DNA of 64,000 bases from NCBI GenBank assembly GCA_009746045.1, contig RPFO01000366.1, positions 392,501-456,500 of the forward strand, read 5' to 3'. The position numbers and the translations under genes are program-made. Positions 33,130-64,000 of the stretch are shown piece after piece. Within the stretch, counting starts at the first letter, position 1, and each line of letters starts with the position of its first letter. The DNA comes from Mesostigma viride (lineage: Eukaryota; Streptophyta; Mesostigmatophyceae; Mesostigmatales; Mesostigmataceae). The notes under the pieces were generated by a model. It saw nothing but the letters and a program-made list of their open reading frames with translations. It did no database searches and was not told where the DNA came from.

Positions 33130-34614
33130 TTTGGACATGATTCTGGTGTTACAGGGTGTTTACTTGCATTCCTCACGGTGACCTTACGCGCCTTCAGCCT
33201 GGTGAGTCCCCTCTGCACCTTGTGCTGGTGGACTTCATCAAAGCCTTCGATTCGGTTTTCTGGCCTGCGCTTTGGGACATCCTCGAGTTGTTCCGGATCC
33301 CCCGCCCCCTTGTTGCTGTCATCCGCAACCTGTATGAAGGGTCCACCACTTCGGTGCGCACTTCTTACGGGACCACGCCCCCATGCCCTTTACAAAAGGG
33401 TGTGTGGCAGGGCTGCGTGCTGTCGCCCTACCTGTTCATTATTGTGGTCGAATACGTAATGATTCAGGCGTGCAAGCGATTTGCCCGCATCGTGGGTAGG
33501 GAACCAGGGGTGCAGGTCGCTAACAAATTCTGGCATGGCGGAGCGGACACGGAGATTCGGCTGGCAGACATCATCTACGCAGACGACACCACCCTCTTTG
33601 AGGACACTGGGCACGTGCAGACATGGCTTGACTGCCTGGCTATCGAGGCCCGTGCAGTGGGGCTTGAGGTCAGCAAGAAGACAGAGGCCCTAGCGGTTGG
33701 GCTCACCCACTCGCCGCCACCCCTCTATCTCCTCGACGGCTCTCGAGTCCTGTATCGGGACCGCGTCAAGCTGCTGGGCAGCCTGCTCCGCAGCTGCGAG
33801 GTTGATGTGGACCATCGCATCTCCCTCGCCTGGCACGCTTTACGCCAGTACCGGGCCCTGTGGCGCAAGCCCCTGGGCAAGATCGAGAAACAGGACCTGT
33901 TCAAGGTCCTCGTCCTTCCTGTTCTCACATATGGGGCCGAGACGTGGACCCTCACCGCCGACCTGGCCCGCAAGCTGGACGGCGTGGTCACCAACATGCT
34001 GCGTTCCATTTTCAGAGTAGGATATGCTGCTCATGTCCGCAATGAGGACCTGTACCAGGGCATGCCATATATCACCAGCACCATTAAGCAGCGGCGCCTG
34101 CAGCTAGTAGGGCACTTAGCTCGCACCAACCAGGTAGACACCTCACGTGGCCCCCCCGCACGTGGCCCCCCCGGCAGGTCTGCGACCAGCTCAGCCTGGC
34201 CGGCACCTCCTGACGTGGGCCGGGCCCAGTCATCATTAGACGCCGCAAGGCCCGCACCTTCAAAGAACAGCTAGTAGAGGACATGGGGGGCCTAGGCCTC
34301 TCCGTAATCTGGACGAAGATGATGGACAAGGCCAAGTGGGCCCTGGTCATAGAGGACAACGAGCCCCCCCCTGCGGGGAAGCGCCCGCGTGTGCAAACCC
34401 CTGGGAGGCACGCCAGCCAGCTCCCCTAGGGCAGCGTGAGGCTGTCTAGATAGATCATGTTGTAGTTAGAATGCTGTTTGATAGATGTCGTAGGTAGCTG
34501 ATGTAGATAGATTAGACCGGTAGGACTATTTGCACCCATCCATCCATCCATCGGGGTTAATGCTCCGTGACTCCCCAACGGGAGCACGTGAGTCTAATTA
34601 ATTAATTAATTAAT
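33130..34614 (+). mobile_element. 5'-truncated LINE: RT domain and 3' tail
   Basis: One long frame, in phase from about 33190, encodes LVDFIKAFDSVFWPALWDIL, LYEGSTTSVRT, WQGCVLSPYLFIIVVEYV and IIYADDTTLFED. The two RT aspartates are at the YADD near 33575. A thumb/connection region and RRLQLVGHLARTNQVDTS follow. RT palm motifs A to E are intact over about 330 residues, making this the best-preserved RT in the window, but the endonuclease and fingers are missing. The tail carries (CATC)4, a TGCTCC/GGAGCA hairpin at 34561-34586 and (TTAA)n to 34614. Confidence 0.85.
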
Positions 34615-35413: not shown

Positions 35414-38047
35414 ATGAATCACATGACCATGAAGGGCACGCCCGGCCCTTTATGGCTACGCTTTCCAACCCGGGACGAGCTCCTGGAAAAGTTCAACAAA
35501 GTCGCGGGCAAACTGTCCAATGAGAAGGCCGTATCGAGAATGCTCCATACCGAGCTCGCAAAACTCGTCGCGGTGGACTTATATTCCGCTTTAATGACTG
35601 CCTACTATCTGGTCGTGAAGGCCGACGTGACATGGTCAAGCAGGAATTGCAAGAAGATTATCGAGGCATTGGACGAGACAATGAAGTACAACAACTGCTC
35701 CATCGCGGCATTAGTTTTCTGCGTGGTCATCCTTGGCGACCTGTGGCAAAAGAGCCACGACGCCATGGTTGGGAAGAAGTTTGACTACATGATCATGGTC
35801 GGCCTAAGCACGTCCACGGCGCCCATTGACCCGCGCGACGACCCCATGGGCGCCCTGGAGTATTGCCCCGGTTACGTGCACACGAGAGCCAGCTGGCTTC
35901 TCCCAGAGTCCAAAGAAGGCCGCATCCGGGTTTGCAAGCAAATGCTGCGCGACGAGCAAGCGAGGAGTGGGCGGCCCCCGCAGGCGACAGGCGGGGCCGG
36001 CAGGCCCTTACCCTCATGGTTGGATGACGTCACCAGCTTGCCCGCCGCCGCGCACCAGACGCGGGCCGACAGCGTTGACTCCTCGGCCAGCACCCCTTCG
36101 CAGGGACAGGGAGAGGCTCCTGGGAATGCAAAGGGGCGCGGTACTAGTGCCGGAAGCGCACCGGGCAGGCCAGGTGGCGCCACCCGGGCCAGCGACACGG
36201 CTCCTGCCCCCCCCATGCGTCGTGATGCGGAGGAGGAGCGCCGGGCACGCATGCGCGAGCTTCCCCCGGAGGAATGCGCGCCGCTGCTCAATGTGTGAGC
36301 GCGCTCACGCTTGCGGCTTATGCTGGCAGCTCTGTTTTTCAATCTACACAGGGTGCTGCTGGTGCTGGGGGGACTATAGCCTGCGTGCGTCTTGTGGGGT
36401 GGAAGAGTGGGCGCGTGAGGGCCTTCATGCGGGTGCTGGGGGGACTGTAACCTGTGTGCGTCTTGTGGGGTGGAAGAGTGGGCGCGTGAGGGCCTATATG
36501 CTGGTGCTGGGGGGACTATAGCCTGCGTGCTTTTTGTGGAATTGAAGAGTGGGCGCGTGAGGGCCTTGATGCGGGTGCTGGGGGGACTGTAACCTGCGTG
36601 CGTCTTGTGGGGTGGAAGAGTGGGCGCGTGAGGGCCTTTATGCGCGCTCTGGGGGGACTATGACCTGTGTGCCTCTTGTGGAGTTGAAAGTGCGGCCCGC
36701 TGCTCAAGGCGAGTGTTGTTTATGCTGGCGGCTTGCATGCACTGCAATCTAATGTAGCAGAATGCTGGTGCTACCTTCCCTCCCCGCGTCCCTCCTTCCC
36801 TTCCTTTTACATGTCATGTACTCGGGTGTGCTCACATGCCCTGTCCACCTCCCTCTTTTCCACCCCTACCCCGACGCCAACCCTAACCCACCCGCCCACC
36901 CACCCCCACCTCCACCCCCACCCCCGGCCCCGGCCCCGGCCCCGGCCCCGGCCCCGGCCCCGGCCCCGGCCCCGGCTCCGGCCCCGGCCCCGGCCCCGGC
37001 CCCGGCCCCCAGGTCACGGTCCCCGAGCTCAAGGCCTGGCTGCTGGCTTCCGCCCCCGCGCCCCCGCTCGAGCCCAAGTCCCGAGCCGCGCTGCTGGCCC
37101 TGCTGGACGACTACCCGCGGACCGGGCAGGTGCGGCTCCAGGGTCCCTGCCCCTCCTGCGGCAAGCTCCTCCCCTCCATTTCCGCGCTGTACAGCCACCT
37201 GGTGATGGAGCACTTTCCCAACCGGTACTATGTGGACGAGTCGCTTCCGTTCCAGGGCATGCTGCTGATGAATCTGTTTCGGAGTCATGTTTGTGGGAGC
37301 GTGCCGGCCGATTTGGCGCATTACCTGGACGTGTTCCAGATGAACTCGCCCCCTGGGAACGAGGAGGGGAAGGAGAGGGGGGGGCGGGAGGTACCGAAGG
37401 GGCTGGGTGCGGGCTGTCAGGGGATAAATAACTTCCAAATCAAATATAATAAAAAGAATAGTCTCAGTGATCCCGAGCAAGGCTCGTCCGTGGGACAGGT
37501 GGCAGCACGCCACACGCAGGAGGAGCAGCTAACGAGAGGAGCGGTGGCAAAGGAGGAGAATGGGGTAAAGGGGAATGTCGGGGCGAGCGACAGCACCGGT
37601 GGTGGCGACAGAGGCGAGGGGGCACGAAAGAAGGGCAACCAGGGGGGACGCAAGCTGGTTGGCAGCGAGGACGCTCTCTTGGCAGCCTTTGGGGCGCGGC
37701 TGGAGGCGGCCGGATCACACGCAATGCTGGCACACCACGCGCTGGCGGAGGCCGGCGAATGCTCTTCGACTGTCCTGCAGACACTCACCCGACTGGCAGG
37801 CGTGCAGATAGACGTGTTGTTGGTGGTAGGGTTTGGGGAGGAGGTGCGGGACACCGTGTTCCACCTGGCGGCGCACCATTGGCTGGATCGGTCGCTCTGG
37901 ATGTTGCTCGATCGGGAGCTGGAGGCGATTGAGATTCAGGTGATGATGGGGCTGAAACAGGTGGGGACTGCGGGCCACAGAATGGGCTTTGCGATGAATA
38001 CCCCTTTAGAGTTCTCTAGTGCTAGGTGCAGGTGGCAGAGGAGCTGA
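35414..38047 (+). CDS. Unrecognised protein with possible SAP-like segment and C2H2 finger
   Basis: Exon 1 is open from the ATG at 35414 (MNHMTMKGTPGPL). It encodes a mixed helical region (about residues 1-180) and then a low-complexity tail ending PPEECAPLLN. I propose a donor after 36292 (GTGTGA) and an acceptor at 37012 (CCCCCAG). This joins in phase to VTVPELKAWLLASAP, which resembles a SAP-type start, and then to a C2H2 finger (CPSCGKLLPSISALYSHLVMEH read as two overlapping pieces). The frame stays open to 38047. This model gives about 637 residues. The weak points are the donor and the far C terminus: a GTGGGG after AAACAG near 37970 could be another donor. No function can be assigned beyond possible nucleic-acid binding. 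Confidence 0.5.
36355..36712. repeat. 71-bp minisatellite, five units
   Basis: Units start GTGCTGGGGGGACT at 36362, 36433, 36504 and 36575, with a fifth, divergent unit near 36646. The array lies inside the proposed intron 36293-37012. Confidence 0.9.
36926..37010. repeat. (CCGGCC)n microsatellite at an intron 3' end
   Basis: About 85 bases of CCCCGG units directly precede the proposed acceptor CCCCCAG at 37012. It acts as the C-rich tract before the exon. Confidence 0.9.
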
Positions 38048-42200: not shown

Positions 42201-45200
42201 GGCTGGACAATGGTGTGTGCGTTCTGCTACTGCTTTGCAAGGCATTCCCCTACTAATATATACTACAGCAAAGCATAGTAAATCACCCAGCATCCTTTCC
42301 TACTGCTTGGCAAGGCAATCTCCCACCACTTGCTTCTCTATAGCTTCTTATAGTTAATCACCCAGCATCCCTTCCTCCCGAAGGCAATCCTTGAGTGGTT
42401 TGATTCTAATTGTCTAGTGGATGAGCCAAGGAAGGTAGGTGGTCCATGAACTGACACAGAAAGCATGAAAGGGAGGCACCGCGCGCACGCGTAGCAGGGC
42501 GACAAGCATCATGAATAGCGCACAGGTGACCTGGCTGTGAGTGTTTACGGTGGCTTGTGCCGCAGCACGTTTTTCTTTGTGCATTGTAACTTGTACTTTC
42601 TCGGTCCGGTTATTGATCTACTGGCCAATAGCTCTCTGAAATGCTAGTCTTGTTGCGAGCCCTATCCCCTCCACTCCCCCTCTTTCTCGCTTTCCTCCAT
42701 CCCCTTTAATCCCCTTCTATACTATCCCTCTTCCTCAACCGCTGCCATATGTATTCCCTCAACCCCTGCCATCACTCTTCCCTCAATTCTCGCCCCTTTC
42801 CTCAGGACAAGCTGGACATGGCGGTCAGCGAGCGCAGCCAGGCGTGGTTGCTGCGGGAGCTGATGGGGGAGGAGGGCGACAGGGGGGCAAAGGGCGAGCG
42901 GGGCGCCAGGCAGGCGGAGCAAGGGAAGGCCAAGAAGGAGGCCAAGGCCAAGGGGAAGGAGGCCAAGGAGAGGGAGGCGAAAGAGGCCAAGGAGAGGGAG
43001 GCGAAAGAGAGGGAAATGAAAGAGGAGGCGAAAGAGAAGGAGGCAAAGGAGAAGGAGGCAAAGGAGAAGGAGGCAAAGGAGAAGGAGGCCAAGGAGAAGG
43101 AGGCAAGGGACAGGGATGAGAAAGAGAAGGAGGCACAGGAGAAGGAGGCAAAGGAGAAGGAGGCCAAGGAGAAGGAGGCCAAGGAGAAGGAGGCAAAGGA
43201 GAAGGAGGCAAAGGAGAAGGAGGCACAGGAGAATGAGGCGAAAGAGAATGAGGCGAAAGAGAATGAGGCGAAAGAGAAGGAGGCGAAAGAGAAGGAGGCG
43301 AAAGAGAAGGAGGCGAAAGAGAAGGAGGCGAAAGAGAAGGAGGCGAAAGAGAAGGAGACGAAAGAGAAGGAGGCGAAAGAGAAGGAGGCGAAAGAGAAGG
43401 AGGCGAAAGAGGCCAAGGAGAAGGAGGCAAAGGAGGCAAAGGAGAGGGATCTGAAAGAGAGGGAGGCGAAACAAGCCGAGGAAAAGGAGATGACGGCAGA
43501 GTTGGAGCCGCATCTGAAGGCAGCCAAGGACGAGAGAGGGATTTGGGAGGAGGAGGCAACGAGAAGGGCGCGGCTCTCGCATGAGACGGCTGCAGAAGAG
43601 GAAAACGATTTAAAATCATCCGAGGCGGTAAAGGGGGCAAAGGAGGGAGAGGCAGCAGCAAGGGCAAAAGCAGCAAGAGAAGCAGAGGAGGCGGTGGATT
43701 TAGAGGAGGCGGAGGAGGCCCAGGTGAGGACAAGATGTGACTGGGAAGCTAGAGGATTTGAACCTCTAGAAGGACTTTTTTTTTTTTGCTTGAAAGGCAT
43801 GGCAGAGAGGTGCACGAGAAGGAGGAGGCCCAGGTGAGGAAGCAGAAGAGCAGGATCCAACCTTTTTCATAGCGGTTGCCTTGCAAAGCATAGCAGCAGC
43901 GGCCTAGGCACTACATTGGGCACATCGCGGTCACTGCAGTGGGAACCCATTGCGGCTGACTGGCAACGCGGTAGGAAGACCGTGACTGGGAGAGCTTGCA
44001 TGGGACTTGGGTGATTGGAAGGTGGTTGGTGAGGGCCAGGAGAGGGGTTAAGGAAGGTGAGGGGAAGACCTTGCTAGTTCGTGGGGGGCGGGGGAGGTAT
44101 GAAGGAGGGAGCAGGTTGGGGAAGGCTTGGGGAAGAGGTTTGGCAGGGGTATTTGTTGTCGTGGAATAGGGGGTTGCTTTCCTTGGGGTGTCGTGGAATA
44201 GGGGTTGCTTTCCTTGGGGTGTCGTGGGATAGGGGGTTGCTTTCTATCTTGGGCTGAAATCAGCTTTAGCAAACAAAGCATGTTGGGGACCCGGGGGACG
44301 GCAGGGGAAGAAGTGGATTTTGGAAAGGGCGAATGGAGAAGTAAGCTTAGTTTGTGTCTACCATTCTTGGAATGGAGCCTGCCTTTTGGTCTTGTTGGAC
44401 AGGACGCAAGGGGCGCGTAGACACCAACGAAGCGCGAATGATATGGTCGGTGCTCGCGTGCTCGTTGGCCCGGTATTCACGGCGGTCATTTCCTCCCCCG
44501 CCGTTGCGCGCCTAGCTACCGCCCCCCTTGCTCCCCGATGCCCGCTTGTGTCCTTTCTTTCGACAGTCCGTGATGTGTAGCCGCTGCATAGTCTCTAACT
44601 TGCTCGTGCGTGCTGGTTGCAACCGTGTGTTAATTGCCACCATGGATTTTTCTTCTTGCTCCACGCCCCCTCCCAAAAGCGCCTGTTCGAGCGGTCCACC
44701 GGTGTCCGGGAGCAACCGCAGCCGCAAAGGGTGGATGAGCTCCAGGAGTTGGAGTCGCGGAGGTAAGCTCCTATCTCTATATGTATGACGTGGAGACGCA
44801 GAGGTATGCTCCTATCTCTGTATGTATTAGGTGGAGTCGTGGAGGTAAGCTCCCATCTTTATACTAGTATGTATGATGCGGAGTCGCAAAGGTACGCTCC
44901 TATCTCTACATGCATTGTTGGATTTTCTCTTTTCTCTGTCTTTGTATCTGTTCGCTTAAGCAATCGTGCTGTTATCTAGGTGGTTGGGTTGTTGTCTGTA
45001 GTCATTATTATTATTGTTGTTTATTGTTATTTTTATTTAGACGGCTTTGTACGTGTATGTGCTAATGATGTGTGTATGCTGTACACACATATCCATACAA
45101 ACTGTTTGCATACATAGTTTACATTTTTTACGCAGGTTACTTTGTTTGCATACACAGACTGCTTTGCGCTTGCCCACACGTATTAAAGGACTTGAGGCTG

Positions 45201-47185: not shown

Positions 47186-47353
47186 TGTGCTTGTGTTTGT
47201 CATCAGTAATCTGATCTTCAACATGCTGCGTGGGACTGGAAAGCAAATGTTCTATGCGTGGGCAACCAATTAGCCGCTCTTGGCAGGTTGAAGCGATGCA
47301 CAAACGGGGTTCATTCATAATCTGTGTAACAGGAATCTGATGTCCATGGCCCG

Positions 47354-48436
47354 ATGGAACTACTTGCTTATACTAGGCTTATAATATGGCGGCATTGGTT
47401 GTTCAACCTTGGCCGTGACAGGTCGGCAATTGAGGAAACGCCGGTGCATGCGCACCAGGATCTGCATGAGCAGACCGTGGCCGCAGGGGCTAGAGCCACC
47501 AGAGGCCAGACACAGGAGCCGGGCCCACCCGGCCGCAGCGCCGCCCCTGTATCAGCAGCGACGCCCGCACAGTCAGTGGCTGCGGTGGGTCCACGTGCCC
47601 GGGCCGCGACCGGGAAGAAGCCCATCCGACCATCCCCCCCGGCGATGCAGCCAGTGACGCCGCCCCTGCTTCCGCTGCAGAAGCGGTACGCGCACATGCA
47701 CGGGATGGGCCCGGCCGAGCTGGCGCGGCTGAACGGCCTGCTCACGTCCCTTCTCAAGTCCCAGCTGCTGGAGCCGAGCCAGAGCCCTTACTCTGCTGGC
47801 ATCCGCCTCCTGGCCAAGCAGGAAGGCCTCTCGCGCCTGGTGCTGGACTACCGGCAGCTGAACGCGATGACCGCCCTCTCCGACAACCGCTCGCTGCCTC
47901 GCCTCGATGACAAGCTGCTGGGCCGTGCCTCGGGCGCCGCGTATTTCACCCTGGCGGGCTGCTCGCACGCCACCTGGCAGGTGCGGCTCGCGCCGGGGGA
48001 CTGCATGAAGACAGCGTTCCTGACGCCGTTTGGGCGGTTCCAGTTCCGCGTGCTTCCGGTGGGGCTCGCGGGCGCGGCCGATTCCGTCCAGCTACTCATG
48101 AACGAGGTGTTTGGGGCGCAGATGGGCCTTCGATTGAGCCAACGCGGGGCCCAGGTTAGCTCAACTGGTAATAAAGGTTCATCAGAGAGCCGTGCAGGGA
48201 ATAGTGCCGCATCCCACAACAGTCCCCGCCCTTGCATGATAAACTACCTGGATGATCTCGTGGTGTACTCGCCCACTGCGGAGGGTCACATGCAGGACAT
48301 GGCCACGGTGCTGCAGGTCATGGCCGCAAATCAGATGACCACCTGTCACATCGCGGGGATGTGGTTTGATAGGCCAGTGACGGGCCGGTGCCGGACGCCA
48401 TCAGGCGAGACGGTCGGGACGGATCCCGATGAGTAG
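47354..48436 (+). pseudogene. Ty3/gypsy reverse transcriptase fragment
   Basis: The frame encodes a gypsy RT core: QKRYAHMHGMGPAEL, then LLKSQLLEPSQSPYSAGIRL, LSRLVLDYRQLNAMT and TAFLTPFGRFQFRVLPVGLA. The catalytic YLDDLVVYS is near 48245. The motif A position, normally FxxLDLxxGYxQ, reads FTLAGCSHATWQ, so the first catalytic Asp is absent. A 40-residue unrelated insertion lies between FGAQ and MINYLDD. There is no protease, RNase H, integrase or LTR. It ends at a stop at 48436. This is a dead fragment; gypsy-type retrotransposons are common in algae. Confidence 0.8.
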
Positions 48437-51050: not shown

Positions 51051-52560
51051 TAATCGATCGGATTTCTTTGAAAATGGTTTAGTGTAGTGGTACGAGCGAG
51101 ACCGCCGCACGCGGCTGGGACAGCTGCCGGTGTTATGTCCCGCCAGCCGCGCGGGTTTCACGGGCGTCAGACATAAATTAAATATGGGCAATTGTGGGCC
51201 GGCCGTGCCCTTGGTCAGGCCGTGCGCCACTAGTCCTTAGGCAGCTAGTACGGAATGTATGCCATTGCTGAAAAACTGGCGTCACATGCTAGTGACGTGG
51301 TGATGGTCGCCACTTGTCAGTGGCCATATTTTGCATGTGACGAAAGCCCTTTGCGTGGCAAGCCCTAGTGGGCTTTGAAAGTAGCTAGGAGTAGGAATAG
51401 TTCAAAGCTTGTATAGTTCGTAGGGAGTTTGTTACGCAAGTCTGATGTTACACGGAAAGTGAATGAAGTTTGTCAACGGCTGTCCTGCTAATGGCCGAAG
51501 GGGAATATAGCCCATCGCAGTTTGAACATTGTCTAGGTAGTTTCTAACATCCGCCCACCCACCCCTTTTTTCGCTGGTGCTGGGGGCATGCACTACGTAC
51601 GTGCTGAATTGTTTTCTTATTCGGATACACCTTGCCATTCATTCATGATGGCCCAGTCCACTCATTGTTCTAATAAGAATGGGTGATTCCTGGGAGTGAA
51701 CGGGTGTAATAAACATAGCATGATATTTACAACGCCTTTGACAAGCATGCCCCTCCGCATGAATAAGTCCTTGCATGCTTAGTACGTGTAATTATACCTG
51801 ATTGTCCCTTTGATCCCTAGTGTAGTCACTATGGTCGCTACGGTCGTCTTTTTGATACCAGGATCCAGCTAGGGGGCGGCAGAAAGATAAATGAAATCGA
51901 TTACCATGGATAGGCCAGCATAGGCACTAGGATATGTTGCGTGTAATAAATATATTCAATTGACATGCATAATGAACAATTCGCATGAAATCTAAGGCAT
52001 AAGACTGTACTTTGTACAATATTGATTGATGACAATGCAAGAAGACCAAGTGATCGAGCCCTTTGCTCACATTGAAATGGTTAAGTATATGTTTTGTGCA
52101 TGTAAGCATCCTTTGGGCAATTACGGTTTGAGGTGTATACACATATGGTAATCGCACTAGACATCTTGCATGCATGAACAGCTTATAGTCAGGTAGTCCA
52201 CGAGATTTACAATGAATGGAATGGCTAGGACGCGACCGGTGTGGCTAGCGCTCCCAGTGGAGCTAGAGCCTTGATTTGCCGGTGCGGGAGAAGCTATATG
52301 GTCACAGCGGCCCGCAAGCCCAACTGGGTACAGCCGTGTGTAGCTGCACACGCGTGCATGGAAAACTGGAAACGCTGTATACGAAGTATCCTAGAAGGTA
52401 CACAGCGGCGCTACAGAGGCAGGGACATGTATCAATCCCGGCCAATCAATGTGGTAGTCCAATTCAGGCTATCAACAATCGGAAGTGAGGTTTATGAATG
52501 TAGCATATTTGTGTGTCTCGAACTGAAATTGTTGATGTATCACGTTGTGGGCTCGGGGCT
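51051..52560. other. Downstream flank of the micro-exon gene
   Basis: The part next to 52561 is the presumed 3' untranslated region of the minus-strand gene, with a TGTAA candidate (minus strand) at 52207-52211. The rest shows no gene. Confidence 0.4.
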
Positions 52561-52607
52561 TCATTCGAAGTCTGCAGCGTCCAGCTCGGACTCCTGAACG
52601 TCCAGCG
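52561..52607 (-). other. Terminal type A exon with stop codon
   Basis: After the acceptor ATGCAG the exon reads (G)CG CTG GAC and encodes ALDVQESELDAADFE followed by TGA. It aligns residue for residue with the internal type A block AYDMMESELDAEDFE, so the gene ends on a degenerate A module, with the stop at the point where internal copies have the splice donor. Confidence 0.8.
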
Positions 52608-55600
52608 CTGCATGTACAGTAAAACATTGGTTGCACATTCAAGCTTTAAAGCATGACTGGTCGTGAAAGCCAGCACAACTGTGCAAAAGTATCAGGGTAA
52701 TATCCAAAGACCAATCCCGTCCTGTGGACCTATCCTTTGGATATGTCCACAGTGTTCAGCGCTACAAACAGAAGTGCTCTCACACATCGAGCATGGAACA
52801 GATTACCAACAACAAGGTGCCCAATATTGTCAGGTAACAACTCAGTGCTGGCCTCGGAGGACATGTATGAGCATGCAATGCCGATACATACCTGCATGTC
52901 CTCGCAATTATCATCAAAACCGTACGTACTAGTTGTGCATCAACCCAGTCTCTGGAAAGCCGGAGTGCTTATGGCTGGAACATCATCCCACTTGAGGCAG
53001 CAAGAGAAGATAGGGTGCCCTTCCTCCTCGTTCTGTAGAGGGGTTCTTTATTGGCACCTGTGTGGCGCAGTCACGTGCCCCAAGATCTGCGAGTCCTCTC
53101 CGTGGAACCCCTATAAATAGTAATGATAGACAAACGCTATGGGTTGCCTTGTGAATAACTCATATCAAAACAGAGGTAGCGTGCTTACTTACCTCCAGCT
53201 GGAGCCGGCGCAGGCGCGGGCGCGGGCGCGGGTGCTGGTGCGTACTGCAGCAGCTTACGACCTGCAAATGATCAAACAAGGCATGGTAGACACATAGCAG
53301 GAAGGCAGTCGGGCTTATTATCTAGTGACCCATGGGCGATGCTAACAAGCGACAGAATCAAATTGACAGATAGGAGAGTCTTATCAGCGGGTGCATCAGC
53401 CAAGAGTATCAACTTCAATCGACGCATCTGCTGGACGGAATGGCTACATGCAAAGCTGAGGCTTCCTGCTTGGTGGATACTGTTAAGCGTCCCTTGCACG
53501 TTATTTGGTTCGAATTGCCTCTTCTTTTTCCCCCTTTCTCTTCTCCTTTTCGCGCTCCTCTTGAGTTAGGGCTGACTCACCGCGCTCACATGGAGAGACG
53601 TCACTCACCAGCCTCAAAGTCCTCCGCGTCCAACTCCGACTCCATCATGTCGTAGGCTGCGGTATGCATGGGTCGACCCCAAGAGCCAGCCAAGAACCAC
53701 ACCCCAAGTTCCAGCCAATAACCAGGCAAGTACCGGCCCAGGGAGCAGCCAGCCAAAGTTAGCGAGAATACGATAATGCAGGACCAGGGACAGAGGCAGG
53801 CCCGGGACAGTGGCACCAAGAATGATCAGTAACATGTCAAAGCAGCGAGCTTGCATCTTGCAGTCCCAGACATAATTTTAGAAGCGCACGCAAAAGTGCT
53901 TTAAGTGTCCCATGGACCTTGTGATCAGGAGAGGCATGTGGCACCCTCCCGGGCCAAACAAGAAATGTTGTGACAAAACATGTTCCTGGTTTCGCTCACC
54001 TCCTGCGGGGGCGGGTCCCGGCGCGGGGGCGGGGGCGAACTGGAGCAGCTTCCTCCCTGCCGCGATCAAATTCGGTCGCCACAATGTAACGAAGAAAGTA
54101 AGTCGGTTAATCGAAGAACCATGGTAGGTCCTGCATGTGGGTACTGCTACTGATGGTGCAGTCAGATATTGACACTCATCAATCAACATGCGGGAAACAC
54201 AAACAAGCCAAGGAATGGTGCCTGTGCAGGTGGGTCTCTCTCTGTCACAGGAGGCCTAGCCGAATACAGAGAAGGAAACAGAAGTGGACCACTCACTAGC
54301 TTCAAAGTCCTCCGCGTCGAGCTCCGACTCCATCATGTCGTAGGCTGTGGTGGGAGGAAAAGAAAAAAGGAAAAAGAACAAGAAGAGAAGAAAGAAGAGA
54401 AGAAGCACAAAGAGTGAAGGGAAGAAGGAAAAACACCAACATTAGTACCCCAACCCTCATCAATTCACAGGATACCGCGCAAGGGCGAAGAGGAAAAAAT
54501 TAAGTTGATGGAAAGATCTCAAGAACTGCAAAGTTAAAACAAATGATATCGTGAAATTGGTGGAACAAATGTACCATAGTAATGCCCAGGGTCACCGGAG
54601 TAGGTAAAATCCAAACACATGTTTTTAAGTACAAATCTCAAGGTGCGTTTTGGAAAGTGGTAAAGCAGAAAGACAGGAGGGTGGGCTGATTCACTTACCC
54701 CCAGCTGGGGCAGGCGCGGGGGCCGGGGCTGGGGCAAACTGGAGCAGCTTCCTCCCTGTGAAAGCGAAAGCAGGATGGGACGAGGTAAGAAGCAAGCCAC
54801 AGGAGAGCCAGTGTGAGAGAAGCAACAGCCCAAGAGAGATGTTGGGGAAAAAATATGCACGGGCATCTGAGGTGACTGCAACTGACAAGCATAATTAATG
54901 CCCCCGAGGCAAATAATGCCCCCAACGCAAATAATGCCCCAAGGCGCAAAACATTATGCTTGCTAATCACAAACGGCAGATTTCACTCACTGGCTTCAAA
55001 GTCCTCCGCGTCCAGCTCCGACTCCATCATGTCGTAGGCTGTGGTGGGACAAGGGCGGAGGATCAGCAGGGATCATATAGTGACCACGCATTGAACCCCA
55101 GAGAAAGATGAAATGCAGAAAACCTGTTATGAAAAATGTAAAAAGAATCGACGTATTTGTAGTACACAATAGCCCTTGTCTGTGTGTCAAAGGAACCTAC
55201 TGAACAAGACTGGCCGGACTAACTGCGACCAATCGTTAATCCAGGTAATGGTTCAAATCCATACACTGAAGGCAACCATGCCAGGCTGAAATTCCAATAT
55301 CATTGAATAAGTAGCGCGCAGACGTAGTGATGTAGGAGTACAGCTTTTAGTGGCAACAAAGCAATATGATTGAACGGGTGCATATGTGGGAATTACCGAT
55401 AACAACATGGGTCAACATGCCGATGGAGGCCTCGATACCATAGGATGCACAGAAGAGCGAGGGAAATGCCGTTCATTGCTTACCGCCAGCTGGGGCAGGC
55501 GCGGGGGCAGGTGCAGGGGCAAACTGAAGCAGCTTCCTCCCTGCATTGTGCAAAGGTGGACAGGCAGAACCAAACCCCCCAGATCCCGGAATCAGAGTTT

Positions 55601-58600
55601 TTGCCAAGTTTTCTCATCATACGCAAGGCCATACAAAAAACGTCTAGAAAGTTAATCGTGCTTATATACTCACCAGCCTCTGTGTCCAGCTCCGACCCCA
55701 TCACGCCAAGTGCTAACTTAGGTACTAACATACGTACTAAACATACGACTGCAACTACTACAGTCTATAGTGTGCGTTCAAATACTCACTGGCTTCAAAA
55801 TCCTCCGCGTCCAGCTCCGACTCCATCATGTCATAGGCTGTATGAGGGACATACGGTTGGAATGAGCGCCGGAAGGGACAGGTTTGACAGAAAAAAGTGA
55901 CAGTCAGAAACATTTCGGGATAAGTAACAGAAGGAAAAGATTTGGAATGAAGTACACAAGGAAAAGGCCTCGGATAAGTGACAGCTGACAGAATGAACCA
56001 ATTTCCCAGAAGTGCTAGGTCAGAGCGCAGCCATCCTCTTTCCACTACAGAATGTGAGGGAGTGATCTTTGGCGCAGCGCATAAGATATGAAATAAAAGA
56101 TCCTAATCACTATTGTGTGATAAGAATTATGTGTTTAGTCCTTTCACCAATCACTCGAGCTGCAACTGCCCAAGATTTTCAAAACTAGGGTCTGTACAAG
56201 ACAAATTTCCTTTGCAGGCAAGCACTGATAAGTGCAAGGGAAACCCTAGATTGCTTACCGCCAGCTGGGGCAGGCGCAGGGGCGGGCGCAGGGGCAAACT
56301 GGAGCAGCTTCCTCCCTGCTCGTGCAACGGTGGGCAGGGGAAAAGGCCATCAGGAAAGGAGGGTGGCAGTGAAAAGGCCATCGAATTCTGAGCAGACCAT
56401 GGACCCTTGTCTATTGTATGCAGCGAAACTGGGCCTTGCCATAACACAGAAGCAAGGTATAGCTAGCAATGCGTCCAGTGTTCAAAGCACCGTGAGGAGG
56501 ATAAAGAAGTGCAGCCCAATGTCAAGGCACCTCTCTGCCCATGAGGGAACAGCAAAGCAGACTCAAGGCATGTCAGTTAGTGCACCATACTAGGTCGGAG
56601 CTTCCAGCGTCACTCACTGGCTTCAAACTCCTCCGCGTCCAGCTCCGACTCCATCATGTCGTAGGCTGAGGAATGGGATGCGCAGATGGGCAGACAAGCA
56701 GGTTTTAGGGGTGGGAGGGAAAAAAAGGGGGAGTGAAGAGAGGAAGAGAGTTATTTTAGGGGAGGTGGGGGTGAGAGCATTGCAGTTTTAAAATGCAGCA
56801 AAGTCAGAAACAGTGAATAGGGGACGTACAGTCACATACTATGAGAGTTGAGACTCAATAGGAACTTCGGAATGGCTCTTGTCAAGATGTTAGGGTGCAA
56901 CGATCGTATTATACTCTTACCTCTGGGGTTCATTTCCCCCGACTCTCCCTCATTGGTGCGGCTGCGCAAGCATCAATTATGGTTGCATGGCTGCAAACAG
57001 AGTTGTGTCCTGCGATCGCGACTAGGTATACCCCTACCAAGTGCCGACAGCTTTAGTCAACAGGAGAGCGCCAATCGGCAAACTTCCTTGGCCAATCGGC
57101 AAACTTCCTTGGCCAAGCGGCATTCCTTGGCCATCGGCAAGCTTCCTTGGCTTATCAATCGATAATAGCCAGTAACCTACCCCCCAAAAGAGGGGACGCC
57201 CTGCTTGCTTACCGCCAGCGGGCGCCGGGGCAGGGGCAGGGGCAGGGGCGGGGGCAGGTGCAAATTGAAGCAGCTTCCTCCCTGCGCAAGCAAATCCAAA
57301 TCCACAGCAGAATGCCATGAAATGATGAGTCACTGCAACCTGGAGCAGCTTTTTCCTCCTTGCAGGGGTAATGGACACGTGGAACCAAGCAAGGGGCACA
57401 ATCCAAGAGTGCTTAAAACCTACGGCTTCGCAAGGCAACCCCCTAGAAAGTCTTTTTAGGAGTGACCGAGCAGCTGTCCATGGCAGCAGACACTTAGATA
57501 GGCAAGAAACGGAACAAATGGATGGGCAGGACGCTTAACATGTGGGAGATGGAAACTTGACACGTGGCGGATGGCCGGGACAGTGCAGCCGCAGGCAAGA
57601 GGCCAATGTGCATTTACATGCTGGCAGACATAATAACCCTAGCCCATACTTGTTAGCAGGGCAGAGCACGGCATGCGCCCTTGTGGATAGCATTATTTCT
57701 ATGGCTCTGATACCGCGCACGATTTTACTTGGAAGGACTAGCGATGAGGTGGCACATGGTGGAACGACATTTCTGCCCTCATGCCGCGTTAAATTCTACT
57801 ATTCCAGAAGCCAACTCACTATTGCCAGGGGGTTATGGGATGTGAGTAAAAAGTAGAAGCTCACTCACCAGCCTCAAAATCCTCAGCATCGAGCTCGGAC
57901 TCCATCGCATCATAGGCTGATGCGTAACAAGCAGGGAGAAGTCGACCGGGTGGAGTAGTACAGCCACTCAACGTATTATCAGGCACGTTTTTAATACTAA
58001 GATGCCATGAGGCCACTAGCCTGGAATGCTGAATAAGAACTGAGCAACCTCTGAATAAGTCAAAAGGTACATGGGGAAAGTCATGCAATGCAATGTCCTC
58101 CATAACTATCTGTACTGCTCTAGATATGACTCTGAATAAGGCAAAAGGTACATGGGCAAAGTCATGCAATGCAATGTCCTCCATAACTATCTGTACTGCT
58201 CTAGATATGACTCTGAATAAGGCAAAAGGTACATGGGCAAAGTCATGGAGTGCAATGTTCTCCATAACTATCTGAACTGCTCTAGATATGACTCTGAATA
58301 AGGCAAAAGGTACATGGGCAAAAGTCATGGAGTGCAATGTCCTCCATAGCTATCTGTACTGCTCTAGATATGACCTGAATTGCAGGGTCCCCAGGGTCAT
58401 GACTGCCTAGGTAGCCCCACAACACACAAGGCCTGGCACAAGGCATGGCGCAACACTCTCTGCTGGTGCTATGCTCCTGCCATCTTCACTCAACGAGTTT
58501 GAAGGTGGCATACAACATAGAAACACTAGCCACACGCTACTAAGCCTAGAGAAGCTGACCCACAGGGAGGATAACGTAGGCCGGAACGGCAGGCAGGAGC

Positions 58601-61600
58601 GAATGCAGAGCATATATGAACATGCAACACAAGAACTAGTACAAGGGTCTGCACTAGGATGGTTTCTCCCTTACATCGGAACATGCAACACAGGAGCCCC
58701 CGCGTGTGTCTGCACTGGGATGGTTTCTCCCTTACATCGGAACATGCAACACAGGAGCCCCTGCGTGTGTCCGCACTGGGATGGTTTCTCCCTTACATCG
58801 GAACATGCAACACAGGAGCCCCCGCGTGTGTCTGCACTGGGATGGTTTCTCCCTTACATCGGAACATGCAACACAGGAGCCCCCGCGTGTGTCTGCACTA
58901 GGATGGTTTCTCCCTTACATCGGAACATGCAACACAGGAGCCCCCGCGTGTGTCCGCACTAGGATGGTTTCTCCCTTACATCGGAACATGCAACACAGGA
59001 GCCCCCGCGTGTGTCCGCACTAGGATGGTTTCTCCCTTACATCGGAACATGCAACACAGGAGCCCCCGCGTGTGTCTGCACTAGGATGGTTTCTCCCTTA
59101 CATCGGAACATGCAACACAGGAGCCCCCGCGTGTGTCTGCACTAGGATGGTTTCTCCCTTACCGCCAGCAGGCGCGGGGGCCGGGGCAGGCGCGGGGGCG
59201 AACTGGAGAAGCTTCCGCCCTGCATGCCAGAACCAGCAAAAATTCACGTTCAGGGGCAGGCAGGAAGGTGGAGATGAAGAGGGTGCGTGAGGGGGGAAGG
59301 GGCGGATTAAGAAGAAGGGTAAAAGGGGGGGGGGCGGGGTGTGAGCAGAAGGCGAGCCGTGGCAGCTTTTTGACAAGAGAGTTGGCTGGGGTAATGTGCG
59401 CTTTGAAGAAACAAAACGCAAGTTCACATACTCCTATGGCTGTGTGCCTTGCTCAAAATAAATTGTTAAAGGTTCTTGAAGTATATGTTGAGAGTAGAAA
59501 CATGATGGGCACCAGATATCCAACAAAAACTGCCATCTGCACTCAACAGCACACAACCTCACCGTGCGAGCACCACTCATCAGCCACTCATCAGGCAAGT
59601 CTTCATCGTCCAGCTTCGACTCCATCATGTCAAGTGCTAACATACTACGTATTACAACTATTACAACTGTTACTACTATTACTACTATTACTACTATTAC
59701 TACTATATTACAACATCTTCTACTACTATAGGCTTTAGTATGCGCTCGAATACTCACTGGCTTCAAAGTCCTCCGCGTCCAGCTCCGACTCCATCATGTC
59801 GTAGGCTGTCGCGAGGGAGAAAACCCAAAGAAAAGAAACCAAGCACACAGACGTTGACCATGTCATGCCAGTCCTGGAAGAATGGAGGGGGTGCGGAAAC
59901 CAACCAGTCAAGTGCTGGGCTATGAGATCTGAAGCAGATGGAATTCGGCCCCAACCGCCAGACAGCAGGGCATTGGCCATGAGGGAGCGTGGTGATTCGC
60001 ATGCTGAGGTGACAGGTGATGCAAATGCTGACCACATGCGAAACAGGGGAACTGTGAACAACACACCTGAGACAAGAAGCCACTTGACAACGTGGAGGGG
60101 ATGGCACATGCAAGACTGGCTATCCGGATGAGTGGCGCGCCTAGTGACAAAAGAGGGGGGGGGGGATCTCGAAGAGACATGTGGCCACGATGGTACTGCA
60201 AAGCAGCTTGCTACTACTCCAGAAGCCCTTACATCACATCATGACCCTAAACATCCCAAAGACACTTCCAGATCATGTTCATAGCACGGTGCAAATGAGA
60301 ATATGCACGTGGTCGCATTTGGCTTGTGACTGTTAAGCTCCCTATGGAAACCTTGACAAAATCACTACTTAATGCGGCAGGTGTGCTTTTACTGAGGAAG
60401 CATCATTGCAGGAAATTTTGAAGCATGGGGAAAGCATGAGCAGGCCCAGGGCAACTTGTCGCTCAGTGTAGACAAGAGCTTACCGCCCGCGGGCGCGGGT
60501 GCAGGCGCGGGCGCAGGCGCGGGCGCGTACTGCAGCAGCTTCCTCCCTGCTTGCGCATTCGCCCACAAGGACATGAACGCGTTGCGGTCTTTGGGAGAAT
60601 AGTGAGAGCGGCGCGGGGGAATGGAACCGGGAGCAGCACCATTATCATCATGGTTGCAGGCAAATTATCAGTGTGCACGGCTACCAACCCACGTAAAGAA
60701 ACATCCAAATACCAAAACAGCGCTTTTGTGGTGGCTGCTGGCACTCTTAAGTGGCACCATCGTTTTGCAGTGCTCAGTCCTTCCACACAAAATGCACAAG
60801 GCAGCAAAGGCTTGTGTACCATGCAACTATGATGATAGCCTTGAGAAAAAACTTCAACTATGATGATAGCCTTGAGAGAAAACGTAGTCCTCACAGACAG
60901 GTGCGCCCTTGAGAACATTTCAAGCCGTGTCTGGGCATGTCACCTAGCAATGCCGCAGCAACGTTTAATGCCATGTCTACAAACAGAGGATGTGCCCTGT
61001 TGGATACTGGACAGTGCTCCATGTCTGGGTATAGGTCATGTGCCATGGTATAGACAAGCCGGCCACATCTTCTGTTGACATGAACCCGACATGAATGGCT
61101 CATCCCTGAGTCTGCCAGCGACCTTGCACAGAGATGGGCACGCCAGTCATAGTGTGCTGTATCCATGCGTAGTCTCCCCTAGCTGTCCCCTGCCCCCTTC
61201 GAGGCAGGAACAAGGAACAATCTATAGGCTGTCAAGGAACCTTCGAGGCAGGAGCCATCTATAGCCTTGCAAGCTAGGTTTTTGTCTGTTCAGTGATCGG
61301 TAAGCCTGTTCACATGGATCTGGATGCAAACAATGGTTTGTTAGCGTATGACGCAAGATACTAGCCAACTCCTACACTGACCGAAGACAAGCGCAAGGAC
61401 TACACGAGCCAACTCCTACACTGACCGAAGACAAGCGCAAGGACCACACGAGCCAACTCCTGTACTGACCGAAGACAAGCGCAAGGACCACACGAGCCAA
61501 CTCCTGTACTGACCGAAGACAAGCGCAAGGACTACACGAGCCAACTCCTACACTGACCGAAGAAAATCGCAAGGACTACACGAGCCAACTCCTATACTGA

Positions 61601-63424
61601 CCAATCTCAAAGTCCTCGGCGTCCAGCTCCGACTCCATCGCGTCGTAGGCTACGCGGGCAGTGGACCATTGAGGGCACATCCATGTAGATAAAAAGCACA
61701 AGTCGACGCAAGAATGTGTGTGACAGCAGGGATGTGTGAAGGGTTCAAGGTGATCGTTTAAATGGGATGATGTTGCAGGCCAGCAGCCAAATGCCGAACT
61801 TTAAGTACACATTTCTGGCTAGAGAGTGAGCAAGGAACACATGTTGCTGGGTGAACAACGAGGAATAATTGCCTGCATCAAACCTGCAACAAAATAGTGC
61901 CCAATTTTTCTGAGGACAAGTTACTACAAGGCCCAAGGCCCACGCCCAGGTACAATCAGATTTGTGGTGAAGTATACACGCTTAATGAGAGCCTTCTTAG
62001 AATATCAATGAACAGGTCAGAGCAGACCTAGACATAGGGCCTGCAGGTTGGTGTATCGTAAGCAGCACCGCAAGAATTCCAAGAATCTCAGCAAACCCAG
62101 AAATCAAAATGCGCGACCCTGCCCCATGCGTCATATCTCTTTAGTTAACGTACCAAGGGATAAGACCCAGAAACTACCACAAACATAATGCCCGACCCAG
62201 CCTCAGAACACCTCATTAAATTAATTTTACTTGATTTTTGCGCCTCTGGAAACATTTTTCAGACACATGATGTTTCTTAGCGTTCACGCTGCCACCGCAC
62301 ACACCGCGCTGCCCACTCACCGCCCGCAGGGGCAGGTGCCGGCGCCGGAGCCGGCGCAAACTGCAGAAGCTTCCTCCCTGCATGCACATACAATCAGCGA
62401 TGGGAGGTGGCATCAGGCAAGGGTGGGAAGTGTGTCGCAAACCAAGTTAATGGCCATCACTATTCAACATGACAGCCTACCTGGGACTATGCACTGGAAA
62501 TATGCAGAACAATATAGGCACCAAGATCGCAAGTGGACAGACCCTACAAGTCTGGCTGTCAGTGGGCGTGCAAACTGGAATGACGCCTAAGAAAGGATCT
62601 TGAATGCAGGGTGACCTGAGCAGTGAAGTAGCGTGCCCAAAGAATGCCATGAGTAGCATGTGCTGGCACGCATTTCGGAGTTCATGCCTGCTTCAGGAAG
62701 GACCAGCCAAACGCCATTTCCGGATAATCAGCCTCCTGCTACTGCAAATACTTGGACAGCTGCCTGCAGTTTGTCTTGTGACAAGCGGTAATTAGGATTG
62801 CCGTAAGTTTACGAACCTGCATTAGAGCCGACGACCAATTTATCATGAAGCACCCTCCCTGGACAAAGGCAGAGGACAAGCCAACGCAGCATGCACAGGC
62901 AATTACAACTGATTGAGGGTTGAGAAGGAGGCGGGACGAGTAGGAGGAGGGAGGAGGGCGGCAAGCTGTTTGCAGGGGAAACAGAAGAGAAGGTATGACT
63001 TGCGCAAGAATTTGTCAGTCAGTGCGTTGCAAGGTCTTCATACGATTTCGTCATGCATTATTAGCAGGAGCGACTTCCACTTTCGTTAAGGCAGCCTGTC
63101 AATAGGCGTCACCACCACAGCTGCCGCTTACTATAAACTTGCCATAACCACCCTGCCATATTTTGCTCGCAGCTGGTTGTATTTCATTTCCAAAGCCGTA
63201 TCGGAGCTGCCACGCTAACTAGCGAGGAGAAAGAGTATCCGAGCTTGGGATCGGTAACCTTGGGCTGGTGTGGAACCCTAGGGGGGCAGCATTGGTCGGC
63301 AATGTAGGGGAAAAAAATGTAGGACCGGGACGCCATTGCCGTCCCAATAGTTTCTCAACTTACCGGTGCAGAGCTGCAGACAACAAACCAGGGCCAAAGC
63401 CAGGAGGGACGCGCGGAAAGCCAT
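52561..63424 (-). CDS. Secreted Ala-Pro repeat protein encoded by alternating micro-exons (20 exons)
   Basis: Exons, in transcript order: signal 63424-63364; B 62377-62321; A 61649-61602; B 60546-60484; A 59805-59758; B 59219-59163; A 57916-57869; B 57281-57213; A 56665-56618; B 56315-56259; A 55837-55790; A' 55712-55674; B 55540-55484; A 55038-54991; B 54755-54699; A 54344-54297; B 54056-54000; A 53656-53609; B 53261-53193; terminal A 52607-52561 with TGA. Every internal exon is phase 1-1 with GT/AG borders. The total of 1,074 nt gives 357 residues. B encodes (G/R)RKLLQ(F/Y) plus four to seven Ala-Pro pairs and AG. A encodes YDMMESELDAEDFEA. The N terminus MAFRASLLALALVCCLQLC is a signal peptide. 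Ala-Pro runs are classic arabinogalactan glycomodules after Pro hydroxylation. Hence the inferred product is a wall or matrix glycoprotein. RRK could also be a processing site. I know no named family with this layout. Transcript evidence is absent, but the frame agreement over 20 exons is strong. Confidence 0.82.
57335..57363 (-). pseudogene. Relic of a type B exon
   Basis: Minus-strand sequence GGAGGAAAAAGCTGCTCCAG differs from live B exons (GGAGGAAGCTGCTCCAG) by a three-base insertion. It runs into non-repeat sequence instead of the Ala-Pro codons. It lies 54 bases upstream (in transcript terms) of the intact B exon at 57213-57281, suggesting a lost duplicate. Confidence 0.5.
58023..58378. 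repeat. 81-bp minisatellite in a micro-exon gene intron
   Basis: Nearly four units start AACTATCTG at 58104 and 58185, with variants at 58266 and 58348. They share GATATGACTCTGAATAAGGC and GTACATGGGCAAAGTCATG. It lies in the intron between B 59163-59219 and A 57869-57916. Confidence 0.9.
58620..59162. repeat. 61-bp minisatellite ending at a splice donor
   Basis: Nine units with starts at about 58620, 58681, 58742, 58803, 58864, 58925, 58986, 59047 and 59108 contain CATGCAACACAGGAGCCCCC and GGATGGTTTCTCCCTTAC. The last unit ends exactly at the exon border 59163, where CCCTTAC is the minus-strand donor GTAAGGG. Every other unit carries the same GTAAGGG word. Confidence 0.92.
59592..59636 (-). 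pseudogene. Decayed A' exon with donor GT changed to AT
   Basis: After a good acceptor (GTTAG) it encodes ALDMMESKLDDEDLPD. The expected donor reads G|ATGAGT in place of G|GTGAGT, so it is probably skipped. It corresponds to the splice-competent A' exon at 55674-55712, which also follows a full A exon and shares the CACTT start and the TACTA-rich intron. Confidence 0.65.
61364..61601. repeat. 44-bp minisatellite ending at a splice donor
   Basis: Units start at 61364, 61408, 61452, 61496 and 61540, with a partial one at 61584. They contain CCAACTCCTACACTGACCGA and AGACAAGCGCAAGGAC. The array abuts the type A exon at 61602, and the ACTGACC of its last partial unit supplies that exon's minus-strand donor, G|GTCAGT. 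The same GGTCAGT word recurs in every unit. Confidence 0.92.
62378..63363. other. First intron of the micro-exon gene
   Basis: A 986-bp intron separates the signal exon from the first B exon. I searched both strands by eye for a further A or B module and found none. Confidence 0.55.
63364..63424 (-). other. Signal-peptide exon of the micro-exon gene
   Basis: ATG at 63424 in the context ATCATGGCT begins MAFRASLLALALVCCLQLCT. It ends in phase 1 at a strong donor, G|GTAAGT. The next exon in frame is a type B module, giving LCTGRKLLQF. The hydrophobic core LLALALVCCL and the small residues before the RKLLQ motif fit a cleaved secretion signal. Confidence 0.82.
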
Positions 63425-64000
63425 GATGCAGGAGAGTAGCACGAGGGTTTGCGGCGGCCATCGACCGCTCCTGCGGGAAACAGCTGTTTAAATGCCAGGC
63501 CATCCTGTGCCGCGCAGAAAGGATGATCGAGCGGCAGATCGCTGATACAAGTAGAATACAGGCCCTGCATGCGCGGGGGGGCGGGTGACCATTGCATTTC
63601 CGAACTAACGCCGACATGACCGCTGTGGTGCCCTGTGCTGCTCGACTGTACAGTACGCATTTTGTGTAAGACGATATTCCGTTTTTGGAGGGTGCATCGT
63701 ACTGCTGGATTTCCAAGGCCGCTCGATCGCGCGGCAAATTGTCAATACTTTCATCTGACGGTCCAGAAAAGATTACAATTGGACGGCTTTGACACTTGTG
63801 AGTTCGTGGAACGCTGTTGCCATTTGCCACATTGTACTAACGGCACCAGTCCTGCTTCTTGCGCATGCCATGGCCATTCCATGCGCTGGCATGGAAGCCT
63901 CATTGCTGGCCACTGTCCACTACTGGCCAGACGTGGCCCGAGAACATCTGCCGGTGGCCACCGTACAGTACAGTCGCCAGTACGGGTGTGCGTGCCAGCC
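63425..64000. other. Putative promoter region of the micro-exon gene
   Basis: This is the sequence upstream of the minus-strand start. No coding region and no clear TATA or initiator element was identified. Confidence 0.4.

Follow-up and report, generated by a model that had tools for sequence, protein, structure and literature searches.

Several described systems resemble the gene analyzed here, which lies on the minus strand (52561..63424) of a 64,000-nucleotide stretch of the Mesostigma viride genome (contig RPFO01000366.1, forward-strand positions 392,501 to 456,500; hereafter, the window) and, judging from its exons, probably encodes a secreted acidic/Ala-Pro (AP) repeat protein. M. viride is a scaly unicellular streptophyte alga that diverged early within the lineage of land plants, which fits the green-alga setting assumed in an earlier note on this DNA. 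Arabinogalactan proteins (AGPs), arabinogalactan (AG) peptides and phytocyanin-like AGPs are plant protein classes that share with the product of this gene clustered Ala-Pro behind a signal-like start. Tropoelastin (ELN) is a low-complexity secreted protein in which two kinds of domains alternate, each encoded by a single exon, with long introns in between (PMC7947355). Schistosome micro-exon genes (MEGs) consist of a signal exon followed by many small, mostly symmetric exons, and their products are secreted (PMC4671649). HypSys and other multi-peptide plant precursors are secreted and contain several hydroxyproline (Hyp)-rich peptides (PMC11371470), and substrates of SBT6.1 such as GOLVEN1 carry RXLX or RXXL sites (PMC4983112). 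Finally, the conserved plant microexon tags are very small streptophyte exons described in 16 genomes, including that of M. viride CCAC 1140 (PMC11096116).

Reading the minus strand of positions 52501-64000 and placing exons by their borders yields a core model of 19 exons, namely, a signal exon, nine B exons, eight A exons and a terminal A exon. The B exons, which are basic and Ala-Pro-rich, alternate with the acidic A exons for nine rounds, and the joined exons (1,035 nt) encode 344 residues with no internal stop. All 18 introns are of the GT-AG type and in phase 1, and all 17 internal exons are divisible by 3 and bounded by phase 1 introns, i.e., symmetric; the acceptor scores of the accepted introns range from 2.1 to 10.0 except for the weakest one, at 0.8. 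The translated exons and their borders thus bear out the design proposed in the earlier note, one exon per half-repeat with alternating acidic and Ala-Pro modules, along with its GT/AG borders and uniform phase 1.

The signal exon (63364..63424, 61 nt), which includes the start codon, encodes the signal-peptide-like MAFRASLLALALVCCLQLCT(G); the hydrophobic start of the protein, MAFRASLLALALVCCLQLCTG, is, judged by eye, in line with the secreted-type start that had been suggested for it. An out-of-frame ATG at 63459-63461 precedes the start codon of the model by 37 bases. The B exons encode RKLLQ, an aromatic residue, 5-7 Ala-Pro pairs and Ala-Gly: B1 (62321..62377, 57 nt, (G)RKLLQF(AP)5AG), B2 (60484..60546, 63 nt, RKLLQY(AP)6AG), B4 (57213..57281, 69 nt, RKLLQF(AP)7AG) and B9 (53193..53261, 69 nt, RKLLQY(AP)7AG), as well as five further exons of 57 nt, B3 (59163..59219), B5 (56259..56315), B6 (55484..55540), B7 (54699..54755) and B8 (54000..54056, with one GP replacing AP). 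The RKLLQ sequence is invariant in all nine units, the first of which directly follows the signal-like sequence; the preceding residue is R in five B exons and G in four. The A exons, built around the acidic motif YDxMESELDAEDFE, are 48 nt long: A1 (61602..61649, (A)YDAMESELDAEDFEI, with a weak donor, gtcag, score 2.8), A2 (59758..59805, YDMMESELDAEDFEA), A3 (57869..57916, YDAMESELDAEDFEA), A4 (56618..56665, YDMMESELDAEEFEA), A5 (55790..55837), A6 (54991..55038), A7 (54297..54344) and A8 (53609..53656). The terminal A exon (52561..52607, 47 nt) encodes (A)LDVQESELDAADFE followed by TGA, so that the protein ends in ...ESELDAADFE.

Exons account for 1,035 nt of the 10,864-nt span (9.5%), and the 90.5% of intron agrees with the earlier estimate of over 90 percent. 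The published means for M. viride NIES-296 are 4.81 exons per gene, exons of 329 bp and introns of 1,142 bp (PMC6947507); compared with the last value, the introns of this gene, with a mean of 546 nt computed from the exon list, are not long. What is unusual about the gene is the number and smallness of its exons, not the intron share, so that the design is striking, as had been claimed, in the former respect, whereas its long intron share is ordinary for the Mesostigma genome. Under the common definition of a micro-exon (51 nt or less), the A exons (47-48 nt) qualify and the B exons are slightly larger.

The described systems also differ from this gene. Tropoelastin is an animal protein; the Mesostigma gene lacks its lysine cross-linking domains, no sequence relation between the two was seen, and the modules here consist of an AP run and of an acidic motif that is conserved. 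The symmetric small exons following a signal exon are those of a MEG, but the central exons of MEGs are mostly under 36 bp, as opposed to 47-69 nt here, where two exon types alternate nine times. The plant microexon tags, at about 1-15 bp, differ from these repeated 47-69 nt modules of a single gene. Compared with the HypSys and GOLVEN1-type precursors, there are nine near-identical units here, each with two exons of its own, and the processing is predicted; the likeness is one of design and does not come from sequence comparison.

Classical AGPs contain at least 50% Pro, Ala, Ser and Thr and have a C-terminal signal for a glycosylphosphatidylinositol (GPI) anchor. The mature chain encoded here (residues 22-344) consists of 26.6 percent A, 15.5 percent P and 2.8 percent S, with no T, for a sum of about 45%, and its C-terminus has no hydrophobic tail and hence no GPI-anchor signal. 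It does contain the clustered Ala/Ser/Thr-Pro of AGPs: each of its nine X-Pro runs has 5-7 pairs, with a single Gly-Pro among them. There is no plastocyanin-like domain in the 344-residue model, which, lacking both the GPI tail and the phytocyanin domain and possessing nine acidic modules, differs from plant AGPs and phytocyanin-like AGPs alike. By the tests made, this is not a classical AGP, a MEG or a phytocyanin. In plants, hydroxylation of X-Pro-X-Pro (X = Ser, Thr, Ala) is frequent, and arabinogalactan is added preferentially at X-Hyp-X-Hyp (PMC6523594). The AP runs fit this Hyp-glycosylation rule, in agreement with the arabinogalactan-type protein envisaged in the earlier note; in composition and in the GPI signal, the chain departs from classical AGPs.

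The modules are real coding exons under strong purifying selection. The ratio of nonsynonymous to synonymous differences (pN/pS) between the eight full A exons is 0.089, and between the nine B exons it is 0.035 for the first 12 codons and 0.028 for the last 6, with pS values of 0.50 to 0.65; in other words, synonymous sites differ by 50-65% between repeats that are nearly constant at the protein level. These low ratios show selection on the protein and exclude a chance origin of the exons. The 60-nt intron flanks of the exons are on average 26-29% alike, the highest value for a pair being 53%. The repeat set is old and has been maintained by selection on the protein; later copying also took place, as some of the central copies are almost the same, with A2 and A6 having identical coding letters. 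Within the A motif, Asp and Glu are swapped in 1 of 56 acidic codon copies. By comparison, at the Ala, Ser and Leu columns the third base belongs to the minority class (purine or pyrimidine) in 5 of 24 codon copies of the A exons (Fisher p 0.008) and in 42 of 132 of A and B together (Fisher p 8e-7), both p-values being optimistic because the codon copies are related to each other. Conservation of the acidic module concerns the sequence itself and not just its charge.

The tight A and B modules are confined to this gene at the sensitivity of the searches, which covered the assembly that contains the window (439,911,974 bases in 2,243 contigs). The back-translated pattern RKLLQ[FY]APAP has nine matches across the assembly, one for each B exon, and none for the reversed control, and the six matches of a 43-base A-exon pattern with at most three mismatches all fall within the gene. 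A genome search with a single A module as protein (E up to 10) retrieves eight matches, one for each full A exon, but neither the terminal A exon nor the A exons of the phytocyanin-like cluster described below, so that this search is blind to relatives that distant. The shorter phase 1 exon-start pattern G-R/S-x-LLQ was rejected as a general feature of the genome, with 48 matches, 9 of them in the gene and 39 elsewhere, compared to 248 for the reversed control. CAG followed by phase 1 RKLLQ or RRLLQ codons also occurs outside the gene, maybe by chance, at C1:13993556-13993575 (minus strand), C224:4377207 (plus strand), C1391:2746765 (plus strand) and C2167:837600 (plus strand), and on contigs C1513, C1579 and C1668.

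No tandem neighbor copy was revealed by motif matches in the examined parts of the 10-kb flanks of the window, and neither Rfam (at gathering scores) nor a tRNA scan reported anything. The full-length model has no match at E up to 10 among the 7,995 word-sharing candidates scored from the protein database, and the gene may accordingly have been missed by automatic annotation. Nine Pfam rows were obtained for the 344-residue model, two of them over the cut-offs (C4bp_oligo and DUF7082); because no stretch passes alone and the chain is of low complexity, these were taken as composition artefacts. Literature searches on RRLLQ/RKLLQ showed nothing about algae among the titles listed, and a search on phytocyanin, arabinogalactan and Mesostigma together found none; nothing on this gene was present in the titles and abstract openings listed by these searches and by one on Mesostigma in connection with exon shuffling, AGPs or micro-exons, with most subscription journals lying outside the search.

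A search started with the last 125 residues of the model yields a single match among 7,989 proteins scored, P0121 (167 residues, labelled Mesvir1, which we read as M. viride), with an E-value of 3.4 that is not significant by itself; the protein was taken up because it comes from the same species, agrees in exon phase, has an AP context and has relatives in its gene cluster. P0121 consists of a signal-like start, a stellacyanin-like stretch (E 0.03 with cucumber stellacyanin, E 0.05 with umecyanin), an Ala-Pro run and SFDVQESAGDAADFE. The latter agrees with the core of the terminal A exon, DVQESELDAADFE, in 11 of 13 residues, a score reached by none of 2,000 shuffles of P0121, with the caveat that P0121 was chosen for its similarity. 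A Pfam search detects Cu_bind_like in P0121 with an E-value of 0.015, below the cut-off of that family, and the AlphaFold model is uninformative (mean predicted local distance difference test score 38.9). In the assembly, the exons of P0121 correspond to five matches on one strand with 72 to 97% identity, some of which run into intron letters; the locus is on contig C1402, and 13 of the 18 P0121 matches fall within 65 kb of that contig. The AP run of the P0121 gene closes an 87-nt exon and the acidic motif forms its own 57-nt exon, both symmetric and in phase 1.

In the surrounding region of C1402 (3066501-3136500), pieces of phytocyanin-like genes form a cluster that occupies both strands and includes AP exons as well as acidic exons resembling A. 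Scanning these 70 kb (eight loci) with the motifs of P0121 and of the window gives A-like scores of 71 for the P0121 self-match, 40 for WDAVESQGDPLDFE, 32 for FDAHESSEDPEVFE and 26 for LDARESLEDPEAFE. As the best chance-looking score is 27, WDAVESQGDPLDFE and FDAHESSEDPEVFE stand above background and LDARESLEDPEAFE rests on context. All four motifs are located in AG/GT-bordered exons (57, 60, 57 and 57 nt), and AP exons were found for three of the four; the joining of these exons into genes is proposed from their order and strand. The AP and acidic exons of the cluster resemble those of the window in size and are likewise symmetric and in phase 1; the acidic ones share the motif D..ES..D...F, and none of the three AP exons has RKLLQ. 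When the AP and acidic stretch is removed from P0121, the remainder forms one unbroken alignment with stellacyanin (E 9.6e-7, compared with 0.03 when it is present), which indicates that the cassette is inserted within the phytocyanin domain. By this alignment, the cassette of the P0121 gene demonstrably interrupts the domain just before HSIW, which aligns with the stellacyanin HNV; the histidine of this stretch is presumably a copper ligand in stellacyanin. For the other genes of the cluster, the same exon order lets us infer insertion within the phytocyanin domain as well.

What is new here is the presence of relatives of the AP and acidic exons inside a phytocyanin-like gene cluster on another contig. 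They could represent a portable phase 1 mini-exon pair, an AP glycomodule and an acidic docking motif, that is used singly in phytocyanin-like domains and ninefold, behind an RKLLQ cutting site, in what would be a multi-copy glycopeptide precursor; this proposal is tentative, and we rate it slightly short of an even chance.

The interpretation we favor, with a confidence evenly divided between its being right and wrong, is that the gene encodes a secreted AGP-like repeat protein which arose by multiplication of the two-exon B and A cassette and which would be cut at RKLL before Q. Following removal of the signal peptide that would direct secretion, the Ala-Pro runs would be hydroxylated and receive arabinogalactan-type glycans, and a subtilase similar to site-1 protease (S1P) would cut RKLL before Q in each unit. 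The predicted products are about nine near-identical acidic glycopeptides with an N-terminal Gln, perhaps subject to further trimming, in which the conserved A motif would be the recognition part. An N-terminal Gln could cyclise to pyroglutamate. The A motif may serve in specific binding or docking, given that the identity of D versus E is kept far better than charge needs. At about even odds, RKLLQ most likely marks the place of cutting into about nine glycopeptides; for such a unit separator, absence from the three AP exons of the cluster is expected. The recognition forms of SBT6.1 are RXLX and RXXL (PMC4983112), and RKLL is listed among the cleavage motifs of flax pectin methylesterases (PMC4008260). 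RKLL fits the rule of SBT6.1/S1P in all nine units, as against the cutting at RRK put forward in the earlier note: its dibasic RK is present in nine of nine units, but the complete RRK in only five. A paper on Chlamydomonas prohormones was considered and set aside, since it concerns dibasic sites, with RRLL and LLQ absent from its main text (PMC6313938).

Several observations weigh against the glycopeptide precursor. The signal peptide is judged by eye only, the number of AP pairs varies between units (5, 6 or 7), and a structural polymer could account for the near-identical units just as well. No S1P was identified among 24 Peptidase_S8 matches (the best candidates), and the motif scan did not recover the form GHGTFVAG, which we take to be that of S1P. 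Furthermore, in the plant precursors studied, cuts by SBT6.1 are described as pre-processing, needed but insufficient for the mature peptide (PMC4983112, PMC7162652).

The main alternative, plausible although clearly below even, is an uncut extracellular structural glycoprotein of a matrix or scale layer, in which AP rods bearing glycans and acidic modules would take turns along the intact chain, and pairing of the basic RKLL heads with acidic tails or with calcium would lead to side-by-side assembly of chains with a tropoelastin-like alternation. Charge indeed alternates along the chain (about +1.8 for B and about -7.2 for A at pH 7; the isoelectric point of the mature chain is 4.07), Mesostigma is covered by scales and has no cell wall (PMC6947507, PMC10762512), and one exon per alternating domain is the design of elastin (PMC7947355). 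However, a generic acidic function would tolerate the D/E swaps that are nearly absent here, and RKLLQ straight after the signal-like sequence has no obvious role in assembly.

It is improbable that the gene serves splicing diversity, such that skipping of symmetric exons, as in schistosome micro-exon genes, would generate many in-frame secreted isoforms. All eight possible combinations of exon ends produce sense codons at the junctions, and the signal exon with mostly symmetric small exons is the MEG arrangement (PMC4671649), but with near-identical modules skipping alters copy number, not kind. A decayed or unexpressed gene is very improbable, for although the full model is unmatched among the 7,995 scored proteins from a database that includes the Mesostigma JGI proteins, all core borders are intact and purifying selection is strong, and a low-complexity gene of tiny exons would easily be overlooked by annotation.

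The earlier note listed 20 exons with a total of 1,074 nt, of which the 19-exon core stands; the remaining one, a shortened A exon of 39 nt (55674..55712, minus strand), is doubtful. This candidate is open and phase-compatible, with a good donor (score 11.6) and an acceptor of 0.7, close to the 0.8 of the weakest accepted intron, and thus cannot be dismissed on its borders. The main reason for doubt is another A copy, further decayed, at the corresponding position of the intron that follows A2 (59594..59636, minus strand), which has an acceptor score of -6.5 and no good in-phase donor (the best one scores -0.2, compared with 6.4 out of phase). The introns following A2 and A5 are partly alignable, with the A copies at matching places in both, and therefore these two extra copies look like leftovers of one duplication; the use of the 39-nt exon in splicing is uncertain. 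The introns also contain minisatellites. Two arrays start at 5' splice sites, one at 58647-59162 (61-nt unit, 8.5 copies, repeating the donor-like GTAAGGG) and one at 61363-61602 (44-nt unit, 5.5 copies, repeating the donor-like GGTCAGT), and both are arrays of possible decoy donors. An 81-nt unit, repeated 4.1 times at 58049-58380, shares its intron with the 61-nt array.

Elsewhere in the window, reverse transcriptase frames are present at 33141-34274 and 47330-48436, the first being 90% identical to a Mesvir1-labelled protein over 68% of its length. A long open frame at 10951-15678 contains an IQ calmodulin-binding motif; its PT repeat is derived from an ACCA microsatellite. Tandem repeats are found at 36357-36692 (71-nt unit, 4.7 copies) and at 42979-43471 (15-nt unit, 32.9 copies), the latter open as a KEAKE-type coding repeat.

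The gene is a clean early-streptophyte case in which each half-repeat of an extracellular-type protein has an exon of its own, and because relatives of its exons sit in another protein family, the steps of shuffling and multiplication can be read from the sequence. If the portable exon pair is real, a motif for signalling or for the matrix would have been spread by exon shuffling in a unicellular alga that branched off early in the lineage of land plants. Cutting at RKLLQ, if it occurs, would make the protein a multi-copy glycopeptide precursor of the SBT6.1 type in a single-celled relative of land plants, which would bear on the time of origin of plant-style peptide processing.

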